The notes under the pieces were generated by a model, which saw only the letters and a list, made by a program, of their open reading frames with translations, searched no databases and had not been told where the DNA came from. Made by a program: the position numbers and the translations under genes. A stretch of DNA of 64,000 bases from Bacteroidota bacterium (GTDB taxonomy: Bacteria; Bacteroidota; Ignavibacteria; Palsa-1295), in assembly GCA_030706745.1 (NCBI GenBank), contig JAUZNX010000001.1, forward strand, positions 62,001-126,000, written 5' to 3'. This document shows positions 10,622 to 54,161 of the stretch, one piece after another (within the stretch, counting starts at the first letter, position 1; every line of letters starts with the position of its first letter).

Positions 10622-10690
10622 GTGCGTGGCGTGCTTCAGCTTGCCCCAAAAAGAAGCGGTAACCAGGGACAAGCTAAAGCATGTCCCACA
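10622..10690. repeat. Palindromic intergenic repeat, copy 1
   Basis: The right arm (10670-10690) has the core CAAGCTAAAGCATG and ends CCCACA. The left arm (10622-10642) is its imperfect reverse complement (GTGCTTCAGCTTG core). The same arm sequence occurs in both arms of the palindrome at 26542-26599, which makes this a dispersed family. Confidence 0.75.
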
Positions 10691-26541: not shown

Positions 26542-26599
26542 TGTGGGACATGCTTTAGCTTGTCTCACTGTTCCGGGGCAAGCTAAAGCATGCCCCACA
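26542..26599. repeat. Palindromic intergenic repeat, copy 2 (contains a start codon)
   Basis: The left arm 26542-26562 and right arm 26579-26599 pair with a single mismatch in 21. The right arm (CAAGCTAAAGCATGCCCCACA) is the same as the right arm at 10670-10690 but for one base. The ATG used as the start of the SpoU methyltransferase (26590) lies inside the right arm. It could also act as a terminator for the genes before it. Confidence 0.85.
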
Positions 26600-52280: not shown

Positions 52281-54161
52281 CTACGCCATTACCAGATCCT
52301 TCATGTCAATCGCTTTCGGAATGATCGCATCAAACTTCTGCATGTCCCACGCAAAAGTTGGGCAGCGTTCGGCACAGAGACCACAATGAACACAAATGTC
52401 TTCGTCCTTGACCATTAGACGGCCGGTTTGCTTCAGGGCCTCGCTGACGAAAAGCGCCTGATCGAGATTCGTTGCTGGTGCGGAAAGATGTTTTCGGAGC
52501 TCGTTCTCATCCGGGGCATCGCGCGTGATCGTCAGGCACTGCACCGGACAAATGTCGATGCAGGCATCACATTCGATACACTTCGGCGCGAAGAAGACCG
52601 TCTCCATGTCGCAGTTCAGGCAGCGCTGGACTTCGTGTGCTGTCTGCTCGGCATTAAAACCAAGCTCTACTTCCGTTGTGAGATTTTTGAAGCGTTCGAC
52701 AAGATCGACGTGCGTCATCTTCTGACGCATCGCAGGATCGTAGTTGTTGTGATACGACCACTCGCTGAGGCCCATCTTCACGCTCACGAGGTTCTTGCCA
52801 CGCGCCGGACGCTCGGTCACCGGGACCTCGTTGCAATGATTGTGTATCGAGATCGCAGCTTGATGGCCGTGCTCGACAGCCCAGATAATATTCTTTGGTC
52901 CCCAGGCCGCATCGCCGCCAAAGAACACGCCAGGTCGCGTGGACATGTGTGTCTTCTCATCAACCTTTGGCATGTCCCACTTGCCGAATTCGATACCGAG
53001 ATCCCGCTCGATCCAAGGGAAGGCGTTGTCCTGACCGATTGCAAGGATTACATCATCACAGGGAATGATGACCGAGTCAATGATGCGCGATTCGGTCGCG
53101 CCCTCGTTCCACTCGACGCGCTCGAACTCCATGCCGACGAGTTTGCCGTTCTCGATCACAAACCGCTTGGGCGAGTGATTGACAACGATCTCGATGCCTT
53201 CTTCCTCGGCATCTTCGAGCTCCCACGGTGAGGCCTTGAAATACTTGCGCGGACGGCGCGCCATCACTTTGATATCCTTGCCGCCGAGCCGGCGCGAGGA
53301 GCGGCAGCAGTCCATCGCGGTATTGCCGACACCAATGATGAGCACGCGCTCGCCAATCGACTTGATGTGCTCGAACGCAATCGAAAACAGCCAGTCGATG
53401 CCAATGTGGATGTTCGCGGCAGCCTCTTTGCGTCCGGGAAGTTCGAGATCTTTACCGCGTGGTGCGCCGGAGCCAACGAAAATCGCGTCGAATTTTTCGA
53501 ATTCGTAGGGGCTAATGGCGTTAGCCCGTTTTGAATTTGATTTATTATTCGAAGACGGGTTGATGCCATTAAGCCCTACGGCCGATTGGTCGCCGTTAAG
53601 CAGTCCCTTGAGACTCCTAACTGGCGAATTATATCTGACATCCACGCCCATATCGACAATCATCGCGATCTCTTCATCGAGCACGTGTGCGGGCAGACGG
53701 AAGGAGGGGATATTCGAGCGCATGAGTCCACCCGGTTTATCCATCGCTTCGAAGATCGTGACTTCGTAGCCCAGCGGCATGAGATCGTTCGCGACCGTGA
53801 GCGATGCCGGTCCCGCGCCGATACAGGCGATGCGCTTGCCGTTCTTCGCGGTCGGAATTTTGGGGAGGCGATCCGAAATGTCATCCCGATGATCGGCGGC
53901 GACGCGCTTCAAGCGGCAAATCGCGACGGGCTTGCCGTCAACGCGCTCGCGGCGGCAGGCCGGCTCGCAGGGACGGTCACACGTGCGTCCGAGAATTCCG
54001 GGAAACACGTTCGACTCGCGGTTGACCATGTAGGCATCCGAAAACCGCCCCTGCGCGATCATGCGGATATACTCCGGCACGTTCGTGTGCGCCGGGCACG
54101 CCCATTGGCAATCGACTACTTTATGAAAATAATCCGGATTCTGTGTGTCTGTGGGCTTCAC
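52281..54161 (-). CDS. GltD-like iron-sulfur flavoprotein with ferredoxin domain
   Basis: A 626-residue FAD/NAD(P) oxidoreductase. The N-terminus has CQWACPAHTNVPEYI and CDRPCEPACRRERVDG cluster motifs, then FAD motif CIGAGPASLTVANDLMPLG and a second nucleotide site VLIIGVGNTAMDCCRSSRRLG. The C-terminus has a two-cluster ferredoxin module (CIECDACIDICPVQCL and CVHCGLCAERCPTFAW). Residues ~194-220 (AVGLNGINPSSNNKSNSKRA and so on) are an insert encoded by an in-frame palindrome. It probably passes electrons between NAD(P)H and ferredoxin. A terminator separates it from the nfn genes downstream. Confidence 0.85.
   Translation of the reverse strand: MKPTDTQNPDYFHKVVDCQWACPAHTNVPEYIRMIAQGRFSDAYMVNRESNVFPGILGRTCDRPCEPACRRERVDGKPVAICRLKRVAADHRDDISDRLPKIPTAKNGKRIACIGAGPASLTVANDLMPLGYEVTIFEAMDKPGGLMRSNIPSFRLPAHVLDEEIAMIVDMGVDVRYNSPVRSLKGLLNGDQSAVGLNGINPSSNNKSNSKRANAISPYEFEKFDAIFVGSGAPRGKDLELPGRKEAAANIHIGIDWLFSIAFEHIKSIGERVLIIGVGNTAMDCCRSSRRLGGKDIKVMARRPRKYFKASPWELEDAEEEGIEIVVNHSPKRFVIENGKLVGMEFERVEWNEGATESRIIDSVIIPCDDVILAIGQDNAFPWIERDLGIEFGKWDMPKVDEKTHMSTRPGVFFGGDAAWGPKNIIWAVEHGHQAAISIHNHCNEVPVTERPARGKNLVSVKMGLSEWSYHNNYDPAMRQKMTHVDLVERFKNLTTEVELGFNAEQTAHEVQRCLNCDMETVFFAPKCIECDACIDICPVQCLTITRDAPDENELRKHLSAPATNLDQALFVSEALKQTGRLMVKDEDICVHCGLCAERCPTFAWDMQKFDAIIPKAIDMKDLVMA
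53504..53580. repeat. In-frame palindromic element in the GltD-like gene
   Basis: The arms 53504-53529 and 53555-53580 pair at 21 of 26 positions across a 25-base AT-rich loop. The element lies inside the coding sequence at residues ~194-220, between the SLKGLL and FDAIFVGSGAPRG segments that are contiguous in homologues. The reading frame is kept. Confidence 0.85.

Follow-up and report, generated by a model that had tools for sequence, protein, structure and literature searches.

The question raised by this locus is how a palindromic repeat comes to lie, in frame, inside the gene of a GltD-like flavoprotein, and what kind of element it is. The gene occupies 52281–54161 on the minus strand of the window, the 64,000-nucleotide stretch of DNA analysed as a whole, and was assigned from its ORF, Pfam matches and orthologues; its 626-residue product contains Fer4_20, Pyr_redox_2 and a C-terminal 4Fe-4S domain. 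The original prediction described 26-base arms paired at 21 positions, which proved exact, the arms lying at 53504–53529 and 53555–53580. The frame was likewise found open through the whole 626-aa ORF, the palindrome being in frame and without a stop, as had been stated. Inverted repeats of equal quality numbered 0, 0, 0, 2 and 0 in five block-shuffled windows; the real window holds three clusters of them, one of which is the flavoprotein palindrome. The single-strand fold of the palindrome reached a z of -7.96 against dinucleotide shuffles, and 0 of 200 shuffles folded as well.

Compared with orthologues in which the site is empty, the in-frame insert amounts to 96 nt (53499–53594, minus strand; residues 190–221), with edges uncertain by a few codons. 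The palindrome itself supplies 25 of these 32 codons, and 21 nt of the insert lie outside it. In the orthologues of the congeners G005 and G006, which lack the insert, residues 1–189 and 222–626 align back to back with a gap-free junction. The empty site was observed directly in four congeners in all (G002, G004, G005 and G006) and also outside the genus, in G028 and G055. Furthermore, 80 homologues representing about ten phyla were compared, and the loop measures 21–22 residues in all but one, PLYO01000014 (Ignavibacteriae palsa_1295), a congener that carries the insert of G003, a different palindrome. These loop lengths rule out that the inserted residues are shared with distant homologues, from which they are absent.

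The insert was originally placed between two conserved strands; the predicted model instead gives a helix (residues 184–188) on one side and a strand (226–229) on the other. Residues 198–220 have a pLDDT below 50, a value used here as a local contrast alone, given that the overall pLDDT of the model is only 66.5. Outside the insert, dN/dS is 0.068 between the window genome (G000) and G001, both of whose genes carry inserts, and 0.034 for the empty-site pair G005/G006. Judged by these ratios, the flavoprotein gene stays under purifying selection.

The palindrome itself is a REP dimer (53505–53579), made up of two 23-nt REPs in inverted orientation, whose GTAG tags form the outer ends. REP 1, GTAGGGGCTAATGGCGTTAGCCC (53505–53527, plus strand), was recognised by its match to the family pattern and by hairpin covariation, while REP 2, GTAGGGCTTAATGGCATCAACCC (53557–53579, minus strand), matches the family pattern with 2 mismatches. 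The spacer between them (53528–53556) varies in length and sequence among copies, whose arms are conserved in the alignment. The 23-nt unit has the consensus GTAGGGGYTAATGGCATTARCCC, namely the GTAG tag followed by an 8-bp stem with a 3-nt loop. Among 21 distinct arm sequences, 14 carry the exact tag and the others differ from it by one or two changes. Covariation of the stem is directly visible in these 21 arms: 95.8% of cells are paired, and at 4 pairs a total of 19 cells are changed on both sides, compared with 0–2 double-sided changes when the partner position was slid as a control.

A genome-wide search for the arms, on which the original prediction depended, returned 25 matches in the window genome and none with the reversed pattern. 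Ten further matches were found in G002 and 0–2 in each of the other five congeners. The 25 matches fall into about 12 sites in this 3.8 Mb, 30-contig assembly: one inside a gene, one at the 3′ end of hisC and one near a gene start, the rest having no convincing spanning gene. Nearly all GTAG sites are inverted pairs with GTAG outermost. The repeat at the hisC 3′ end is present in both G000 and G001 and is an example of inheritance. The family occurs in 3 of 294 genomes of the class, all three from one genus of Ignavibacteriota, and none was detected outside this genus among the 294 searched. The seven genomes compared (G000–G006) are drafts of 20–350 contigs, all of the identifiable ones assembled from metagenomes; some strain mixture is possible, but it is unlikely to have produced in-frame inserts in several genes. 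An ordinary fast-evolving linker containing a palindrome by chance might also be considered, as short insertions are often tolerated in helix–strand loops. However, arms that recur throughout the genome, the folding score and relatives with an empty, length-conserved site make this extremely improbable, and the idea was rejected on the other genomic copies together with the folding.

A candidate for the mover comes from the relatives. In G002, two dimers (C53:72088–72162 and C53:72756–72830) flank a RAYT-like ORF, the end of which lies about 30 bases from the first dimer; this ORF has a Y1_Tnp match above the cut-off and HIH and YIQNNP motifs. In G006, an ORF 54% identical to it is also located between similar repeats. 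The link to RAYT is drawn from these two genomes, and it suggests that a RAYT-type single-strand transposase moved the dimer. In the window genome, no intact RAYT close to that of G002 was seen, so the element would have moved in the past or with a transposase supplied in trans, and near its seven Y1_Tnp genes the arms gave only weak, chance-level matches. This genome does contain a GTAG repeat cluster (L005, C12:91807–92227) enclosing a truncated RAYT-like N-terminus (MSENYPTRRNPRLKGHDYSPEGYYFITMC...), which is probably a decayed REPtron.

Other palindromes occupy the same flavoprotein loop in other congeners. In G001 it is a near-perfect palindrome on CCCCTCCCGC(TT/AA)GCGGGAGGGG, called family B; the G003 insert, family C, is the hairpin CCCTCTCCCCTTCAGGGGAGAGGG, and neither breaks the frame. 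In a tree built from eight genes, G000 and G001 are sisters, and G003 falls together with G005 and G006 (support 100); G004 and G002 branch further out. Because the insert-bearing G003 groups with the empty-site G005 and G006, at least two insertions, and most simply three, occurred at this site. Families B and C share their architecture and may be related, so the clearly unrelated families number at least two here and at least three in the dxs loop described below. It could instead be that one old insertion widened the loop in an ancestor within the genus and that later repeats inserted into it, recombined with it or replaced it, the families then sharing the site because they inherited a soft target. 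In favour of this, inserts are present in both members of the sister pair G000 and G001, and the part of the G000 insert that the palindrome does not cover (21 nt) could be a remnant of such an event; for this pair alone, a single old insertion is possible. For the genus, the position of G003 next to two empty sites, with empty G004 and G002 further out, would require several exact deletions back to the ancestral length, which makes this history rather unlikely.

Scans with families B and C yielded more in-frame insertions, in dxs, a GH57 branching-enzyme-like gene, a DegT aminotransferase and a class-V aminotransferase of the cysteine-desulfurase type, among others. The dxs insert loop, bounded by LRDMLFTA and GP(I/V)AIRYPRG, is filled in frame by a GTAG dimer in G002, by family B in G001, by a family-C-like palindrome in G003 and by an inverted heptamer-repeat element in G000, so that inserts of several families at the same coding loops are directly observed. 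The loop is short in G004 and G006, and in E. coli DXS it comprises about four residues. The repeat type of the G000 dxs insert has 63 matches in that genome and 0 in the control. Its heptamer, TATCCAC, forms inverted arrays that are abundant in G000 (about 60 matches besides the one at C1:11169, one array being the dxs insert), G003, G004 and G006, and absent or rare in G001, G002 and G005. Three inserts were left out of the counts: those in G006 nifS and at c101 of G004, which are not clearly palindromic, and a non-palindromic 43-residue segment in the dxs loop of G005. Between genes, G001 holds other palindromes at three places where G000 has GTAG dimers, and G002 does so at two; repeated filling of short intergenic gaps is less surprising than that of coding loops.

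Further repeats were noted in the course of this work. A CCCCTCCC-type repeat lies in frame at the same place in a restriction/helicase-like C-terminal region of both G001 (C12:874) and G002 (C60), by either common descent or transfer. A second strong palindrome of the window (26542–26599; TGTGGGACATGCTTTAGCTTGTC...GGCAAGCTAAAGCATGCCCCACA) overlaps a 205-aa ORF at its start codon; the ORF may encode a TrmH/SpoU-like methyltransferase, and the palindrome resembles a GTAGCGCACGCTTTAGCTTGC repeat pair of G001. A weaker inverted repeat at 10622–10690 (GGCGTGCTTCAGCTTGCCC...GGGACAAGCTAAAGCATGTCCCAC) is similar to it in sequence.

What brings different families to the same few loops may be sought in the proteins or in the DNA. 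A simulation of site sharing suggests that permissive sites are few; no P value was drawn from it, as the event list is biased, the flavoprotein site having served to define families B and C, and orthologues having led to one of the dxs events. The reuse of sites could reflect a target preference of the mobilising machinery, that is, hotspots of sequence or DNA structure and not selection on the protein. The flavoprotein loop speaks for this, since its conserved length in 79 of 80 homologues argues against a general freedom to vary, yet it was struck two to three times in one genus. On the other hand, the sites are common to families with different ends, no common target motif is obvious by eye on the flanks, and every internal insert examined keeps the frame, which selection explains. 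We therefore regard target preference as unlikely and selection as the presumable cause of site reuse. The GTAG repeat is open in some frames only, so its orientation and phase would be filtered, and the arms of the GC-rich families, read directly, are stop-free in every frame.

Taken together, we consider it very probable that the palindrome is a mobile, genus-confined, REPIN-like GTAG REP dimer inserted by a RAYT-type mover, that selection kept the in-frame copy, and that turnover of repeats refilled permissive sites. A RAYT-mobilised dimer would have entered the flavoprotein gene in the G000 lineage, where its net length of 96 nt, a frame open in the given orientation and phase, and the position in a helix–strand loop would let the protein keep working; we infer such function for the insert-bearing product. 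Selection would then retain the insert as a disordered extension of 25–32 residues. With many palindrome families turning over rapidly in the genus, whichever family was active would refill short gaps between genes and the small number of coding loops that permit insertion, and only in-frame, stop-free copies, adding tolerated disordered extensions of about 13–37 residues, would pass selection. A bolder view seems possible but doubtful: a small set of protein loops, perhaps tens per genome, would serve many unrelated palindrome families of the genus as common insertion sites, and conserved enzymes such as DXP synthase would be repeatedly re-tagged by mobile peptides, insertion possibly being targeted there.

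These species offer natural replicates: among close relatives, one and the same loop either lacks a repeat or holds one of three or four different ones. This allows tests of whether in-frame repeats are neutral and whether sites are reused through selection or targeting. It seems that functional proteins gain short disordered segments from these repeats, at the same few spots where such additions are tolerated. In addition, the repeats are a warning that an odd insertion in a protein from an uncultured genome can turn out to be a mobile repeat.

GTAG-tagged REPs and REPINs with RAYT transposases are well described (Di Nocera 2013, PMC3733652; Bertels and Rainey 2011, PMC3116915; TnpA-REP study 2021, PMC8266576). 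The present family belongs to this class, sharing its 5′ GTAG tag on a short imperfect palindrome, inverted dimers, dispersed and mostly extragenic copies with some in-frame genic ones, and association with a RAYT (Y1/HUH) gene. The unit matches REPSm of S. maltophilia in having GTAG, an 8-bp stem and a 3-nt loop (PMC8266576), and the dimers flanking a RAYT-like gene in the relative G002, a hallmark of the class, have the arrangement of a REPtron of GTAG repeats (PMC3733652). Unlike those repeats, this sequence family was not found outside its genus among the class genomes searched, and its host phylum is absent from the GTAG-repeat list of the 2013 survey (PMC3733652), so that GTAG REPs with in-frame genic copies now extend to a further phylum. 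In contrast to a strictly replicated REPIN, the spacers vary among copies, and no intact cognate RAYT was seen in the window genome.

The original prediction of a family similar but unrelated to the Rickettsia palindromic elements is borne out. Both lie in frame in genes of unrelated function that are retained under selection, a likeness of behaviour and not of membership. The R. conorii elements carry a CGTC tag and have no dedicated transposase (PMC3733652), whereas the tag of the present family is GTAG or close to it, none of the 21 distinct arm sequences has CGTC at its end, and the repeats are associated with a RAYT-like gene. REPs within genes may be neutral where they fall in flexible loops, as Di Nocera and co-workers proposed, and recB of Xanthomonas campestris and X. 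oryzae holds different REPs at about one coding site (PMC3733652). Unlike that case, the present comparison spans a genus, has a tree and includes congeners with empty sites, and the families number three at the flavoprotein loop and four at the dxs loop. In-frame REPs are already published, and what is added is a new GTAG family and an example in which repeated use of the same sites is unusually clear.
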